Source of the DNA: Clavibacter sepedonicus
Lineage (GTDB): Bacteria; Actinomycetota; Actinomycetes; Actinomycetales; Microbacteriaceae
Assembly: GCF_000069225.1 (NCBI RefSeq)
Contig: NC_010407.1
Coordinates: 1,426,001 to 1,490,000 of the forward strand
DNA: 64,000 nucleotides
Direction: 5' to 3'
The position numbers were made by a program, and so were the translations under genes. Of this stretch, positions 40,366 to 47,061 are shown in pieces (the first letter of the stretch is position 1; each line of letters begins with the position of its first letter). A model generated the notes under the pieces. The model made no database searches. It saw only the letters and a list, made by a program, of their open reading frames with translations, and was not told the origin of the DNA.

Positions 40366-41520
40366 GTGCGCACAGCCCTCATCGGGGTGGTGCTCCTCGT
40401 CGTCGGCGCCGTCGCCGTGGCCACCGGAGCCCTCCCGCTCGACGACCTCGGCGTCCTGTACGAGCGGGTCTGGCCGATCCTCCTCTTCGTGGTCGCCATC
40501 ACCGTGGTCACCGAGCTCGCCAGCGAGGCGGGCCTGTTCACCTGGATCGCCGAGCGCGCCGCCGGCCTCGGCCGCGGACGCACGTGGGCCCTCTGGCTCG
40601 CGACCGTGCTCCTCGCCTGCCTCTGCACGATCTTCCTGTCGCTCGACACGACCGCCGTGCTGCTCACGCCCGTGGTCGTCGTGCTCGCCCGGCACTGCGG
40701 GCTCCCGCCGCTCCCGTTCGCACTGACCACCGTGTGGCTCGCCAACACCGCGTCGCTCCTGCTGCCCGTCTCGAACCTCACGAACCTGCTCGCGGAGCAC
40801 GAGCTCGGCGGCCTCGGCCCCGCCGGGTTCGCGGCGCTCACGGTCGCGCCCGCGCTCGTCGCCATCGCCGTGCCCGTGCTCGCGATCCTCGTGATCCACC
40901 GCAAGGACCTCTTCACCCGCTACGAGGTCGGGGCACCGACCGCGCCGACCGACCGCGTGCTCCTCGTGGGCAGCGCTGTGGTCGTGGGGCTCCTCGTGCC
41001 CGCGCTCGTCTCGGGCGTCGAGGTGTGGATCCCCGCGCTCGCCGCGGCCGTCGTGCTCGCGATCCTCACGGCCGTCCGCCGGCCCCGCGTCCTCCGGCTC
41101 GGGCTTCTGCCGTGGCAGCTCGTGGTGTTCGCCTCGGGCCTCTTCATCGTGATGGAGGCCGCGCAGTCGCTCGGGCTCACCGCCGTGATGGCCGCCGTCT
41201 CGGGCCAAGGGCAGGACGCCGGGGCGCTCTTCCGGCTCGCGGGCGTCGCGACGCTCAGCGCCAACGCCGTCGACAACCTGCCGGCCTACCTCGCGCTCGA
41301 GCCGGTCGCGGGATCCCCGGAGCGGCTCGTCGCGATCCTCGTGGGCGTGAACGCCGGCCCGCTCATCACCCCGTGGGCCTCGCTCGCGACGCTGCTCTGG
41401 CACGAGCGGCTCGTGAGCATGGGGGTCCATATCAAGTGGTCGCGATACATGCTGCTGGGGCTCGTGGTCGCGCCCCTCACGGTCGGCCTTGCGATGCTCG
41501 CGTTCGTGCTCACGCACTGA
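40366..41520 (+). CDS. ArsB/SLC13-type (ion transporter superfamily) permease
   Basis: Integral membrane protein of 384 residues with about eleven transmembrane helices. It belongs to the ArsB/NhaD/citrate (IT) superfamily: IFLSLDTTAVLLTPVVVVLAR in the first half and NAVDNLPAYLALEPVAG in the second are the paired re-entrant motifs, and NTASLLLPVSNLTNLL resembles the NTxSLLLP(V/I)SNLTN signature of ArsB-type transporters. Arsenite export is one possibility, but no arsR or arsC gene is nearby, so dicarboxylate or other anion transport is equally possible. The GTG at 40366 follows an AGGAGG site. Confidence 0.85.
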   Translation: MRTALIGVVLLVVGAVAVATGALPLDDLGVLYERVWPILLFVVAITVVTELASEAGLFTWIAERAAGLGRGRTWALWLATVLLACLCTIFLSLDTTAVLLTPVVVVLARHCGLPPLPFALTTVWLANTASLLLPVSNLTNLLAEHELGGLGPAGFAALTVAPALVAIAVPVLAILVIHRKDLFTRYEVGAPTAPTDRVLLVGSAVVVGLLVPALVSGVEVWIPALAAAVVLAILTAVRRPRVLRLGLLPWQLVVFASGLFIVMEAAQSLGLTAVMAAVSGQGQDAGALFRLAGVATLSANAVDNLPAYLALEPVAGSPERLVAILVGVNAGPLITPWASLATLLWHERLVSMGVHIKWSRYMLLGLVVAPLTVGLAMLAFVLTH

Positions 41521-41602: not shown

Positions 41603-42181
41603 GTGACCCGATCCCCCCGCGCATCCGCCGGCGACGAGCTCCGCACCATCGCGGCGGCGCGCTTCGCCCGCGACGGGTTCCAGGCCACCTCGCTGCAGCA
41701 GATCGCGGACGAGGCGGGCTACTCGAAGTCCAGCGTGCTCTACCACTTCGCCTCCAAGGAGGCGCTGCTGGACGCCCTGCTCGAGCCGACCATCGACGCG
41801 CTCGCCGGCGTCATCGAGCGCGCCGACTCCATCCGCGGGGACGAGGACGCGAGGCGCCAGTTCGTCGAGCGCTTCATCGACTTCCTCTTGCTGCACCGGC
41901 ACGAGGTGGCGCTGTTCATCACGCAGGGCCGCTCGCTCGGGCACCTCGCGGTGATCGAGCGCGCCAACGACCTCGTGCGCACGCTCGGCGAGACCGCGGG
42001 CGCGCTCGACAGCACCCTCGACCAGCTGCGCTTCGGCGTGGCTCTCGGCGGCGCGGCGTACATCCTCGCCGCGAGCGACGACTGGTCCACCAACGAACCG
42101 CTGCCCGACGACGAGATCAGGGCTGCTCTCGTCGTGGTCGTGGGGGAGCTCCTCGCCCCCCTCGGCACTCGCTCCGCCTGA
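41603..42181 (+). CDS. TetR-family transcriptional regulator
   Basis: Protein of 192 residues with an N-terminal TetR DNA-binding domain (LRTIAAARFARDGFQATSLQ, then QIADEAGYSKSSVLYHFASKEALL) and a ligand-binding all-helical C-terminus. It is followed after 45 bases by an MMPL exporter and a YhgE-type gene, so it most likely represses this operon and itself through the palindrome at 41575-41586. The inducer is unknown; a lipophilic or toxic substrate of the exporter is a reasonable guess. Confidence 0.9.
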   Translation: MTRSPRASAGDELRTIAAARFARDGFQATSLQQIADEAGYSKSSVLYHFASKEALLDALLEPTIDALAGVIERADSIRGDEDARRQFVERFIDFLLLHRHEVALFITQGRSLGHLAVIERANDLVRTLGETAGALDSTLDQLRFGVALGGAAYILAASDDWSTNEPLPDDEIRAALVVVVGELLAPLGTRSA

Positions 42182-42226: not shown

Positions 42227-45169
42227 ATGGCCACGCTTCTGTACCGGCTCGGCCGGATCTCGTTCCTCCACCCGTGGCGCGTCGTCGCCGCGTGGATCCT
42301 CGTCCTCGGCATCCTGCTCGGCGGCGGCCTCGCGCTCGGCGGCAAGACCCAGGAGTCGTTCTCGATCCCGGGCACCGAGTCGCAGGAGGTCATCGACCGG
42401 CTCGCCGCCGTGTTCCCGCAGGCCGCGGGCGCGAGCGCGCAGATCGTGACCGAGGCACCGGCCGGCGCGAAGGTCACCGACGACGCCGACAAGGCCGCGA
42501 TCGAGGCGACCGCGAAGGCCGCGGGCGAGGTCGACGGCGTCGCGACGGCGCTCTCGCCCTTCTCCGAGTACGCGAGCGACGCCGTGTCCGACGACGGCAC
42601 CGTGGCGATCACGACCGTGCAGTTCTCCGGGCAGAGCGACCAGGTGACCACCGCGACGCTCGACGCGCTGAAGGAGTCGGCGCAGGCGGCCGAGGACGCG
42701 GGGCTCACGGTCTCGTTCGGCGGCCAGGTCTTCCAGGACATCCACTACGGAGTGACCGTGACGGAGGCGTTCGGCGTGCTCTTCGCGGGCCTCGTGCTCG
42801 TGCTCACCTTCGGCTCGATGCTCGCGGCCGGGCTGCCGCTCATCGGCGCGCTGGTCGGGGTGGCCGCGTCCGCGGGCGCGCTGCTGGCCGCGTCGAAGTT
42901 CGTCACGGTGTCGAGCGCGTCGCCGCTGCTCGCGGTGATGATCGGCCTCGCGGTCGGCATCGACTACGCGCTCTTCATCCTCATGCGGCACCGCACGCAG
43001 CTCGCCAACGGCATGCCCGTCGAGCGCTCGGCGTCGACCGCGGTGGCGACGGCAGGCAGCGCCGTGATCTTCGCGGGCGTGACGGTGATCATCGCGCTGC
43101 TGGGGCTCCTCGTGGTGCAGATCCCGTTCCTCACGGTGATGGGACTCGGCGCGGCGTTCGCGGTGCTGCTCGCCATGGGCGTCGCGACGACCCTGCTGCC
43201 GGCGATGCTCGGCCTCGCGGGGGAGCGCCTCCGGCCGAAGGAGGGCTCGCGGGCCGCCCGCCGCGCGAAGGCGCAGTCCGAGGGGACGCAGCGCACGCTC
43301 GGCGCGCGATGGGTGAAGATCGTCACGAAGGTGCCGATCATCCCCGTCGTGATCGTGATCGGCATCGCCGGCCTCCTCGCCGTGCCCGCGTCGCAGCTGC
43401 AGCTCGGGCTGCCGAGCGGGGCGACCGAGCCCGCCGGATCCACCAGCCGCGTCGCGTACGACACCGTCTCCGACGCGTTCGGACCGGGCCACAACGGGCC
43501 GCTCGTCGTGCTCGTCGACATCACGCAGACCACCGACCCGATCGGGGTGCTCGGGGAGATCGGCGACGAGATCCGCGGGCTCGACGACGTGGCCTTCGTC
43601 GGCACCGGCACGCCGAACCCGTCGGTCGACACCGCGATCATCCAGGTGCTGCCGGACAGCCCGCCCGAGTCCGCGGAGACGACCGCGCTCATGCAGTCGA
43701 TCCGCGACCTCGCGCCCGGCCTCCACGACCGCTACGACACCCGTGTCTCCGTCACGGGCACGACCGCGGTGCAGAACGACATCTCGCAGCGGCTCGACCA
43801 GGCGCTCGTGCCGTTCGGCATCGTGGTGGTGGGGCTGTCGATCATCCTGCTGATGATCGTGTTCCGCTCGATCTTCGTGCCGATCAAGGCGGCCGTCGGC
43901 TTCCTGCTGAGCGTCGTCGTGTCGTTCGGCACCGTGGTCCTGATCTTCCAGGACGGCGCGTTCGCGGACGTCCTCGGGGTGACGCCGGGCCCGATCCTGA
44001 GCTTCATGCCGATCCTGCTCATGGCGATCCTGTTCGGGCTCGCCATGGACTACGAGGTGTTCCTCGTCTCCGGGATGCGTGAGGACTTCGTGCACCACGG
44101 CGATGCGAAGCGCGCCATCGTCACCGGCTTCTCGGGCGCGGCCCGCGTCGTGACGGCGGCCGCCCTCATCATGTTCTTCGTCTTCGCGGCCTTCGTGCCC
44201 GAGGGCGCGGGCGTGATCAAGACCATCGCGCTCGGGCTCGCGGTCGGCATCTTCTTCGACGCCTTCCTCGTGCGCATGACCCTGGTGCCCGCGGCCATGG
44301 CGCTGCTCGGGAAGCGGGCGTGGTGGATCCCGCGCTGGCTCGACCGGATCCTGCCCGACGTCGACATCGAGGGCGAGGGCCTCCGCGAGCGCCAGGACGA
44401 CGTGGACTGGGCCCGGGCGTCCGGCGCCGCCGTCGCGACCGAGCGGCTCGTCGTGGGGGTGCCGGGCCGACGGCTCGCGCCCGTCGACCTCAGCGCACCG
44501 GCCGGATCCCTCGTGCTCGTCGAGGGCGACGTCGCCGACCGGCGCCTCCTCGGGGCGACGCTCGGCGCCCGGCTCGCGCCGCTGTCCGGCCGCGCGCACG
44601 TCGCCGGGCACCCGCTCGCCTCGGAGGCCGGCCGCGTGCTCACGAGCGTGGCGATGGCCGACCTCGGCCGCGTCGACCGGGTGGACTCGGGGGTGACCGT
44701 GGGCGACCTGCTCACGGAGCGCATCGACCTGTCGGAGCCGATGGGCCGCCGCCGCGGCGCCCGCGCGCGCCAGGCGGAATGGCTCGGCCGGATCGACCAG
44801 GCGGCCGACGCCGCGGGGGCCCGCCGCATCGGCGCCGACGACCCCGTCGGATCCCTCCTGCCGCTCGAGCGCGCCATCGCCCTGACCGCCGTCGCCGCCT
44901 CGGGGCGCGCCCCGGTGCTCGTGCTCGACGTGGTGGATCCCTTCCCGGACGCCGCCGCCGAGCGCGCGTTCCTCGCCGCCCTGCCCGCCCTCGTGCACGA
45001 GAGCACGACCGTCCTGCTGGGCGCGCCGTGGTTCCCGGACGAGCACGGGATCCCGGGCAGGCCCACCGTGCGCCTCCGCCTCCACGCGGAGGATGCGCCC
45101 GCTCCCGACGCCGACGAGCGCCCCGACACCGACCAGCCCGTCACGACCGGCAAGGAGACCCGCCGATGA
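42227..45169 (+). CDS. MMPL-family RND exporter with C-terminal degenerate ABC-ATPase-like domain
   Basis: Protein of 980 residues. Residues 1 to about 715 are a standard MMPL/RND transporter with twelve predicted transmembrane helices: first helix WRVVAAWILVLGILLGGGLAL, proton-relay-type segments GLAVGIDYALFILMRHRTQ and FGLAMDYEVFLVSGMREDF, and two extracytoplasmic domains. Residues about 725-980 are soluble and recall an ABC nucleotide-binding domain: LVVGVPGRRLAPVDLSAPAG, then GSLVLVEGDVADRRLL where a Walker A would be, LLPLERAIALTAVAASGRAP like a signature-to-Walker B helix, and VLVLDVVDPFPDAAAERAFL like Walker B. Lysine of Walker A and catalytic glutamate are missing. The ATG has an AAGGAG site; the stop overlaps the next gene by four bases. 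Confidence 0.92.
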   Translation: MATLLYRLGRISFLHPWRVVAAWILVLGILLGGGLALGGKTQESFSIPGTESQEVIDRLAAVFPQAAGASAQIVTEAPAGAKVTDDADKAAIEATAKAAGEVDGVATALSPFSEYASDAVSDDGTVAITTVQFSGQSDQVTTATLDALKESAQAAEDAGLTVSFGGQVFQDIHYGVTVTEAFGVLFAGLVLVLTFGSMLAAGLPLIGALVGVAASAGALLAASKFVTVSSASPLLAVMIGLAVGIDYALFILMRHRTQLANGMPVERSASTAVATAGSAVIFAGVTVIIALLGLLVVQIPFLTVMGLGAAFAVLLAMGVATTLLPAMLGLAGERLRPKEGSRAARRAKAQSEGTQRTLGARWVKIVTKVPIIPVVIVIGIAGLLAVPASQLQLGLPSGATEPAGSTSRVAYDTVSDAFGPGHNGPLVVLVDITQTTDPIGVLGEIGDEIRGLDDVAFVGTGTPNPSVDTAIIQVLPDSPPESAETTALMQSIRDLAPGLHDRYDTRVSVTGTTAVQNDISQRLDQALVPFGIVVVGLSIILLMIVFRSIFVPIKAAVGFLLSVVVSFGTVVLIFQDGAFADVLGVTPGPILSFMPILLMAILFGLAMDYEVFLVSGMREDFVHHGDAKRAIVTGFSGAARVVTAAALIMFFVFAAFVPEGAGVIKTIALGLAVGIFFDAFLVRMTLVPAAMALLGKRAWWIPRWLDRILPDVDIEGEGLRERQDDVDWARASGAAVATERLVVGVPGRRLAPVDLSAPAGSLVLVEGDVADRRLLGATLGARLAPLSGRAHVAGHPLASEAGRVLTSVAMADLGRVDRVDSGVTVGDLLTERIDLSEPMGRRRGARARQAEWLGRIDQAADAAGARRIGADDPVGSLLPLERAIALTAVAASGRAPVLVLDVVDPFPDAAAERAFLAALPALVHESTTVLLGAPWFPDEHGIPGRPTVRLRLHAEDAPAPDADERPDTDQPVTTGKETRR

Positions 45170-47061
45170 CCACCCGCACCGTACGCCGACGGCTCGCCGT
45201 CGCCCTCGTCGCGATCGTGCCCCTCGCGGTCGCCGGCCTCTTCATCGGCTCGCTCTCCGACGTGGCGAAGGGCGTCGAGCGCGTGCCCGCCGCCATCGTC
45301 AACCAGGACGAGATCGTGCAGCAGAAGGCCGCGGACGGCACCGAGTCGCCCGTGCTCGCGGGCCGCCTGCTCGTCACGCAGCTGACCAGCGACGACAACC
45401 AGGCCTTCGACTGGACCATCACCAACGCCGACGAGGCCCAGCGGATGCGCGACGACGGCGAGGTCTACGCGGTGCTGACGGTGCCGAAGGACTTCTCCGC
45501 GTCGATCGTGTCGCTGTCGACGGACGCCCCGAAGCGGGCCGACATCAGCGTGAAGACGGACGACGCGCACGGCTACCTGACGGGCGCGGCCACGCAGGCC
45601 GTGGGCGTCGGCATGACGAGCGTGTTCGGCAACGCCATCACCTCGCAGTTCGTCTCCGGCATCTACACGACGTTCGGCGGCCTCAAGGGATCGCTCACGG
45701 ACGCGGGGGCGGGCGCCGACAAGCTGGCCGACGGCGCCACCCAGCTCTCCTCCGGCGCGACGACGCTCGGCGATGGGATCACGCAGCTCGGCGACGGCGT
45801 CGGGCAGTCCCAGCAGGGGGCGTCGAAGCTGGCGGACGGGCTCGGCACGTACACGGGTGGCGTCTCGCAGCTCTCCTCCGGGCTCGACCGGCTGCAGACC
45901 GGTGCCGCGGGGCTGTCGCAGGTCTCCGACGGCGTCGGGCAGTACGCGGGCGGTGCCGGGCAGATCGCGGCGCAGGTCCAGGGGATCCGGCAGCAGCTCG
46001 CCGCGAACCCGCAAAGCGCGCCCATCGCGGCGCAGCTCGAGCCGCTCGAGCAGGGGCTCGACCAGTACGCGGCGCAGGGGCAGACCCTCGCGACGCAGGC
46101 GGCCGCCGGGATCCAGGGCGTGCAGCAGGGCATCGGGCAGAGCGCGTCCGGCGCGTCGCAGCTCGCGGCCAACGGCGGAGCGCTCGTCTCGGGCGCGCGC
46201 CAGCTCAGCGACGGCCTCGGCCAGCTGCGCATCGGAACGACCTCGGCGGCGACGGGTGCGGGCGACCTCGCCACCGGCGCGGACGCGCTGTCCTCCGGCG
46301 CGACCGAGCTCGGCACCGGCCTCACGCAGGGCGCGGAGCAGATCCCGTCGCTCGACGCCGACCAGGCGTCCCAGGCGTCGGGCGTCGTCGCGGATCCGGT
46401 CGGCCTCACGGTCGAGCGCGAGAACGAGATCGGCAACCCGGGCGACGCGATCGCCGCGATCTTCGTGCCCATCGGCCTCTGGCTCGGCGCGTTCGCGACC
46501 TTCCTCGTGCTGCGCCCGGCGGCCCGCCGGCTGCTCGCGTCGTCGGCCGCGACCGGCCGCGTGATGGGGCGCGTGCTCGCGCGCGCCGCCCTCATCGCGC
46601 TCGCCCAGGTCGTCCTGCTCGTGGCGCTCGTGCACGCCGCCCTCGGGCTCTCCCTCGCGCTGCTGCCCGCCACCCTCGGGTTCGCCGCGGTCGCCGCGGC
46701 GGCCTTCACGGCGATCCACTACCTGCTCCGGCAGGCGTTCGGCCGGGCCGGGCTCGTGGTGTCGCTGATCCTGCTGGCCATCCAGGCCGCGGCGATGGGC
46801 GGCGTGATCCCGCTGCAGCTCGTGGCCGCGCCGTTCCAGGCGATCAGCCCGTTCCTGCCGCTCACCTACGCGGCGTCGGGGATGCAGGCGATCATCGCGG
46901 GTGGCGCCCCGGGGGTGGCGTGGAGCGCGGCGGGCGTGCTGGCGGTGTTCCTGCTGCTGAGCCTCGCGGTCTCGTACCTGGTGACGCGGCACTCGCGTCG
47001 GGCGAGGAGCCTCGGGCTCGTGCCCGGGGCGTCGCCGGCCTCGGTCGCCGTCGCCGTCTGA
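45166..47061 (+). CDS. YhgE/Pip-domain ABC-2 type membrane protein
   Basis: Protein of 631 residues. An N-terminal transmembrane helix (about 10-30) precedes the extracytoplasmic Pip domain (VPAAIVNQDEIVQQKAADG). A long repeated helical segment follows, with many SGA-x-x-L and DG-x-x-QL units (LADGATQLSSGATTLGDGIT), about residues 185-400. Five or six transmembrane helices form the C-terminal ABC-2 permease-like part. Such proteins resemble phage infection protein and permeases of peptide or protein export such as type VII secretion accessories. Start codon overlap with the MMPL gene (ATGA) implies the two work together, perhaps in lipid or wall-polymer export. Confidence 0.9.
   Translation: MTTRTVRRRLAVALVAIVPLAVAGLFIGSLSDVAKGVERVPAAIVNQDEIVQQKAADGTESPVLAGRLLVTQLTSDDNQAFDWTITNADEAQRMRDDGEVYAVLTVPKDFSASIVSLSTDAPKRADISVKTDDAHGYLTGAATQAVGVGMTSVFGNAITSQFVSGIYTTFGGLKGSLTDAGAGADKLADGATQLSSGATTLGDGITQLGDGVGQSQQGASKLADGLGTYTGGVSQLSSGLDRLQTGAAGLSQVSDGVGQYAGGAGQIAAQVQGIRQQLAANPQSAPIAAQLEPLEQGLDQYAAQGQTLATQAAAGIQGVQQGIGQSASGASQLAANGGALVSGARQLSDGLGQLRIGTTSAATGAGDLATGADALSSGATELGTGLTQGAEQIPSLDADQASQASGVVADPVGLTVERENEIGNPGDAIAAIFVPIGLWLGAFATFLVLRPAARRLLASSAATGRVMGRVLARAALIALAQVVLLVALVHAALGLSLALLPATLGFAAVAAAAFTAIHYLLRQAFGRAGLVVSLILLAIQAAAMGGVIPLQLVAAPFQAISPFLPLTYAASGMQAIIAGGAPGVAWSAAGVLAVFLLLSLAVSYLVTRHSRRARSLGLVPGASPASVAVAV

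Follow-up and report, generated by a model that had tools for sequence, protein, structure and literature searches.

An MMPL exporter of Clavibacter sepedonicus carries a C-terminal degenerate ABC nucleotide-binding domain and is encoded beside a YhgE/Pip gene

Introduction

Resistance-nodulation-division (RND) pumps are proton-driven, ATP-binding cassette (ABC) transporters are ATP-driven, and the two are taught as separate superfamilies. What, then, is an ABC-like domain doing at the end of an RND-type pump? The question is raised by a locus of Clavibacter sepedonicus (Actinomycetota; Microbacteriaceae), a crop pathogen that appears on control lists, within a stretch of 64,000 nucleotides (contig NC_010407.1, positions 1,426,001 to 1,490,000; hereafter ‘the window’), in which an open reading frame (ORF) at 42227-45169 on the plus strand encodes an MMPL protein of 980 residues and the following gene encodes a YhgE/Pip-family membrane protein. 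An initial annotation of the locus had seen a dead ABC ATPase in the C-terminal tail of the MMPL protein, and had read RND pump, dead ATPase and ABC-2 type partner together as a composite export machine. Its observation as a whole was confirmed and its reading was supported by the analysis reported here. The architecture, in which an ABC pseudo-nucleotide-binding domain is attached to an RND pump beside YhgE, is real, widespread and undescribed in the literature searched: neither the fusion nor pairs of a nucleotide-binding domain (NBD) with YhgE were described among the matches listed, a search whose coverage leaves most subscription journals outside.

Results

The tail in question lies at

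44393..45166, plus strand: C-terminal degenerate ABC nucleotide-binding domain, residues 723-980

and was expected from the initial annotation to be soluble and outside the RND fold. A crude hydropathy scan bore this out, with 12 hydrophobic segments in the MMPL body and no membrane segment in residues 723-980; the start given earlier, 44398, was one base out of frame, codons here beginning at 44393, 44396 and 44399. As a single sequence, the tail matched none of the ABC models of Pfam and NCBIfam and retrieved nothing useful from the PDB (best E value 0.36, a histidine kinase construct), so its kinship with ABC domains is visible by profiles and structure only. A profile of 46 such tails searched against the PDB matched ABC NBDs (EcfA1, 1.9e-6) along positions 13-224 of its 250, and all 60 listed of the 271 matched sequences were ABC proteins. 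Six of the 46 tails matched Pfam ABC_tran at E values up to 1 (best 0.012). The predicted structure of the tail has the ABC NBD fold, modelled confidently apart from the last ~20 residues, as the initial annotation had anticipated. Together, these profile matches and this model show that the tail has ABC homology and a predicted ABC NBD fold; a chance resemblance was ruled out by the profile matches and structure comparison. An assembly artefact was also ruled out: the fusion is present in two congeneric genomes (tail identity 95 and 93%) and many other genera, recurring in dozens of other genomes.

The tail had been described as having its motif positions in ABC order, with the Walker A lysine, the catalytic glutamate and the H-loop histidine lost. 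When aligned with seven canonical ABC ATPases, each element of the tail fell where the initial annotation had placed it:

44525..44545, plus strand: Walker A position, GDVADRR
44855..44869, plus strand: signature (LSGGQ) position, LLPLE
44915..44932, plus strand: Walker B position, VLVLDV, with the Asp kept and the catalytic Glu gone
45020..45031, plus strand: H-loop position, GAPW, with no His

The Walker A loop (aligned as G-DVADRR) is one residue shorter than canonical, with Arg-Arg in place of Lys and Ser/Thr, and in the model a helix begins at tail residue 47, inside the former P-loop. The tail has thus lost all four of Walker A, LSGGQ, the catalytic Glu and the H-loop His, and the label ‘dead ATPase’ fits the window; judged by its motifs, an active ATPase here can be ruled out.

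Motifs were counted across 87 YhgE-linked NBDs, 64 fused and 23 stand-alone, aligned with the same seven ABC ATPases; many of the 87 are close kin, and the counts are not independent. GK[ST] stands at Walker A in 8/64 fused and 5/23 stand-alone domains, 56 of the fused tails lacking it, and GR[ST] in 10 of the 23 stand-alone domains. Arginine occupies the Walker A lysine column in 50/64 fused tails and 10/23 stand-alone domains. Neither an SGG-type signature (LSGGQ) nor the catalytic Glu was found in any of the 87, seven fused tails having no residues in the signature columns. The window retains the Walker B Asp, as do 59 of the 64 fused tails in total and 10/23 stand-alone domains; His is present in the H-loop column in 1/64 and 0/23, respectively. 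In the canonical controls, Lys, signature and Glu were each present in 7/7 and the H-loop His in 6/7. Fusions that keep a Walker A with GKT come from Aeromicrobium, Planobispora and one Propionibacteriaceae metagenome-assembled genome (MAG). At the other extreme, the helical subdomain and signature region are gone in 6/64 aligned fused tails (L139, L141, L179, L199, L200 and L207), and one more, L202, fails to align in this region. An ABC-2 exporter pairs a permease with a catalytically competent NBD; by motif, no aligned YhgE-linked NBD has the signature or the catalytic Glu.

The tail is under purifying selection. Comparing the window's genome with two congeneric genomes, and those two with each other, ratios of nonsynonymous to synonymous substitution rates (dN/dS) were 0.088, 0.136 and 0.109 for the tail; the MMPL body gave 0.067-0.102 and YhgE 0.089-0.116. 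Near-invariant positions are also present across the 46 tails.

The genes and transport features around the tail are as follows:

41603..42181, plus strand: TetR-family regulator, first gene of a TetR-MMPL-YhgE cluster (Pfam TetR_N 8.4e-14)
42227..44392, plus strand: MMPL/RND transporter body, residues 1-722 (Pfam MMPL 1.4e-86)
42962..42967, plus strand: candidate proton-relay pair Asp246-Tyr247, first repeat, from sequence
44048..44053, plus strand: candidate proton-relay pair Asp608-Tyr609, second repeat, from sequence
45166..47061, plus strand: YhgE/Pip-family ABC-2-like membrane protein (TIGR03062, TIGR03061, Pfam ABC2_membrane_3 1e-15)

MMPL, over two stretches, is the only Pfam match of the pump, which scored 204 bits against the NCBIfam MmpL3 equivalog, below the curated cut-off of 1400. 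Its two Asp-Tyr pairs are, from work on MmpL3, candidates for the proton relay. As had been claimed, the next gene is YhgE/Pip and coupled by four bases: its start at 45166 shares ATGA with the MMPL stop. The protein exceeds both NCBIfam cut-offs (TIGR03061, 118.4 versus 96.15 bits, 2.3e-34; TIGR03062, 159.1 versus 102.2 bits, 1.1e-46), has N- and C-terminal YhgE domains, Leu-x-x-Gly repeats and an ABC-2-like membrane part, and matches the EsaA N-terminal model below its cut-off. Upstream (5′) of the TetR gene, 40366-41520 (plus strand) is a hydrophobic ORF of 384 residues, likely a permease.

YhgE adjoins every fusion locus that we looked at. It lies directly downstream in 46/46 first-fetched fusions, the window included, and a TetR relative precedes 45 of these, the remaining one (L042) running off the end of its contig. 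The initial annotation had proposed looking for free-standing homologues next to YhgE genes, and these exist: 8 of the 11 short ORFs from the first fetch are stand-alone relatives directly upstream of YhgE, as are 13 of 18 MMPL-free NBD loci in a second set. The other three (L078, L080 and L086) and five (L134, L135, L137, L138 and L140) are ordinary ABC genes, the three of LSGGQ type, without YhgE; these stretches, found by the same searches, served as negative controls, with a YhgE match in 0/8. NBD profiles also match ordinary ABC proteins, for example in L334, so the label ‘NBD-like’ leans on position and motifs too.

MMPL–NBD fusions with an intact Walker A were found in eight genomes of Aeromicrobium and its kin (L121 and L192-L198). 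A tblastn scan of named genomes for Walker-A-bearing relatives, which is by design silent on how common Walker A loss is, gave 59 loci at E values of 3e-12 or better: 40 stand-alone domains and 19 fusions (13 in Aeromicrobium, 3 in near isolates or MAGs, 2 in Planobispora and 1 in the Propionibacteriaceae MAG). YhgE is downstream in 56 of the 59 (19/19 fusions and 37/40 stand-alone), and the other three (L268, L272 and L290) are at contig ends. At 20 weaker loci (L302-L304 and L306-L322; 7e-8 or worse) no YhgE match was found, and seven of these also had no NBD match. At L290:4917-5702, near the contig end, a YhgE-type NBD gene is split across two reading frames.

Approaching from the YhgE side, we examined 28 loci in the family, hand-picked among the matches listed and excluding those that the tail itself had already brought up. 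In 27 (8 fused, 19 stand-alone), YhgE directly follows an NBD-like gene or an MMPL-fused tail; the exception, L210, has TetR only upstream. In a partial survey of the phylum, in which 43 of 246 genomes matched and loci of 35 of the 43 were examined, an NBD is directly upstream of YhgE at an examined locus in 21/35 genomes.

Two further arrangements of YhgE were observed. Tandem pairs, possibly heterodimers, have no NBD-like gene directly upstream (L330, L331, L332, L334, L335, L336, L337, L340 and L341). Seven large genomes of one genus, perhaps Streptomyces (L122, L123, L124, L126, L127, L128 and L129) carry an NBD-YhgE-TetR cluster with no MMPL match nearby, Walker A reading GPSGxGRT in all seven.

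A quick tree with Shimodaira–Hasegawa-like approximate likelihood ratio test (SH-aLRT) support only, built on the 87 rows left after removal of seven fused tails with an incomplete helical region, separated the YhgE-linked NBDs from the seven canonical ABC ATPases (99). Fused tails without Walker A grouped at 100, as did fused tails with Walker A; the tree leaves the branching order of these two clades and one stand-alone group undecided. Both fused clades have a similar linker, Gly-Glu-x-Leu followed by Trp, a likeness that hints at a single fusion event.

Another YhgE occurs elsewhere in the window's own genome (G000:C2 2275111-2277108), immediately preceded by a stand-alone NBD that lacks Walker A (L214:776-1459). 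Over 3 kb, another contig of this genome is 99.2% identical to a plasmid of Clavibacter sepedonicus. The pseudo-NBD beside this second YhgE belongs to another clade, recurrent in the family, in which an AETExRP-type motif replaces Walker A and an SPxRHGG-type motif replaces Walker B. Its model (predicted local distance difference test score 80.2) matches ABC NBDs, with the heme exporter HrtBA at 3.7e-9. Sequence evidence for this clade is weak by itself, a PDB profile search giving a best E value of 7.5e-4 with ribosomal proteins from 0.13; it is stronger with hhalign (97%, 8.6e-11) and with the model.

Discussion

What might a pseudo-NBD do on an RND pump? Motifs for ATP binding and hydrolysis have been lost while fold and sequence have been kept, so a non-catalytic adaptor is the most likely role, and we think it probable that the tail began as the NBD subunit in a YhgE ABC-2-like system of actinobacteria, was joined to the MMPL C-terminus, and docks YhgE. 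The pseudo-NBD would contact YhgE from the cytoplasm, in the way that an NBD sits on its permease, and would thereby hold YhgE next to the pump. Energy would come from the MMPL Asp-Tyr relay (D246/Y247 and D608/Y609), and YhgE would act as partner or conduit, its long Leu-x-x-Gly repeat region probably lying outside the membrane. That YhgE adjoins the MMPL fusion, as it does relatives of the tail domain, suggests a merger of two kinds of transporter, and MMPL, pseudo-NBD and YhgE may physically form one composite export machine. A bolder version is possible, though we hold it tentatively: an RND–ABC hybrid exporter in which MMPL grips YhgE through the dead NBD and passes proton-driven motion to the permease. 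More widely, many actinobacterial YhgE/Pip proteins would then be ABC-2 permeases paired with NBDs that no longer have ATP-hydrolysis motifs.

The exported cargo is likely to be lipidic or hydrophobic in nature. In Saccharopolyspora hirsuta given cholesterol, YhgE and MMPL genes with neighbouring tags (F1721_04135 and F1721_04140) are up 3.82- and 3.33-fold (PMC9782250). This induction offers a hint on cargo and co-regulation, from an MMPL that may or may not carry the tail.

Several observations weigh against an adaptor that docks YhgE. YhgE lacks an NBD directly upstream in 14 of the 35 phylum genomes, nine of them with tandem YhgE genes; canonical coupling-helix docking is weakened for the six tails without a helical subdomain; and the tail has a higher dN (0.029-0.038) than MMPL (0.014-0.021) or YhgE (0.019-0.022). 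This somewhat faster change, with the truncation of tails in some lineages, is what a decaying relic without a function of its own would predict, yet such a relic would hardly show dN/dS near 0.1, a confident predicted fold and positions near-invariant across 46 tails, and we regard it as very improbable.

An alternative in which YhgE is merely a cluster neighbour would make the pseudo-NBD a cytoplasmic regulatory lid, folding back on MMPL as gate or ligand sensor. The tail is indeed covalently part of MMPL and conserved, and soluble cytoplasmic partners do bind MmpL pumps, as MmpL5-AcpM indicates (PMC11633376); however, YhgE stands beside every fusion locus looked at, and stand-alone members of the domain adjoin YhgE with no MMPL gene in the stretches seen, so that we consider a lid unlikely. 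It is also conceivable, at rather long odds, that the tail, with Arg for the Walker A Lys, retains some non-standard binding of nucleotide or of a different phosphate ligand and works as a switch rather than a motor. The arginine's prevalence (50/64 fused, 10/23 stand-alone), the GKT loops of the Aeromicrobium, Planobispora and Propionibacteriaceae fusions and the Walker B Asp speak for this, the Asp being kept in 59/64 fused tails though only 10/23 stand-alone domains; the window's shortened loop, its lost Ser/Thr and the helix that starts inside the former P-loop speak against it.

Several known systems come close to parts of this locus. With ABC NBDs (PF00005; EcfA, FtsE, CbiO and ABCA-type), the tail shares fold, order of elements, the Walker B Asp and residual similarity over most of the domain, but it has no Walker A Lys/Ser, LSGGQ, catalytic Glu or H-loop His and is covalently attached to an RND pump. 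Like the MmpL3 and MmpL4/5 exporters, the pump has MMPL domains, 12 hydrophobic segments and Asp-Tyr pairs; unlike them, it has a C-terminal pseudo-NBD and YhgE as gene neighbour, and falls far under the MmpL3 equivalog cut-off. ABC exporters with degenerate ATP sites likewise pair permease and NBD genes and have partly lost their ATP-site motifs; those that we know of keep one working site, whereas here all motifs of both site halves are lost.

YhgE/Pip proteins are known as phage receptors, and the family is kin of Bacillus subtilis YueB and staphylococcal EsaA. The next gene has the family's N- and C-terminal domains, Leu-x-x-Gly repeats and ABC-2-like membrane part, and is distinguished by the adjoining NBD-like partner, stand-alone or MMPL-fused; firmicute Pip, YueB and EsaA are not known to use one. 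The Pip (phage infection protein) family is classified as TC 9.B.74, with homologues that include putative ABC-2 transporters (PMC3924187).

A single polypeptide that unites an RND pump with the fold of an ABC NBD joins two superfamilies. The graded series, from Walker A NBDs beside YhgE, through Walker A NBDs fused to MMPL and fusions without Walker A, to fusions without the helical subdomain, makes it testable by what route an ATP motor goes out of service and is put to new use in coupling, and the poorly understood YhgE/Pip proteins gain a partner and a place near the ABC-2 permeases.
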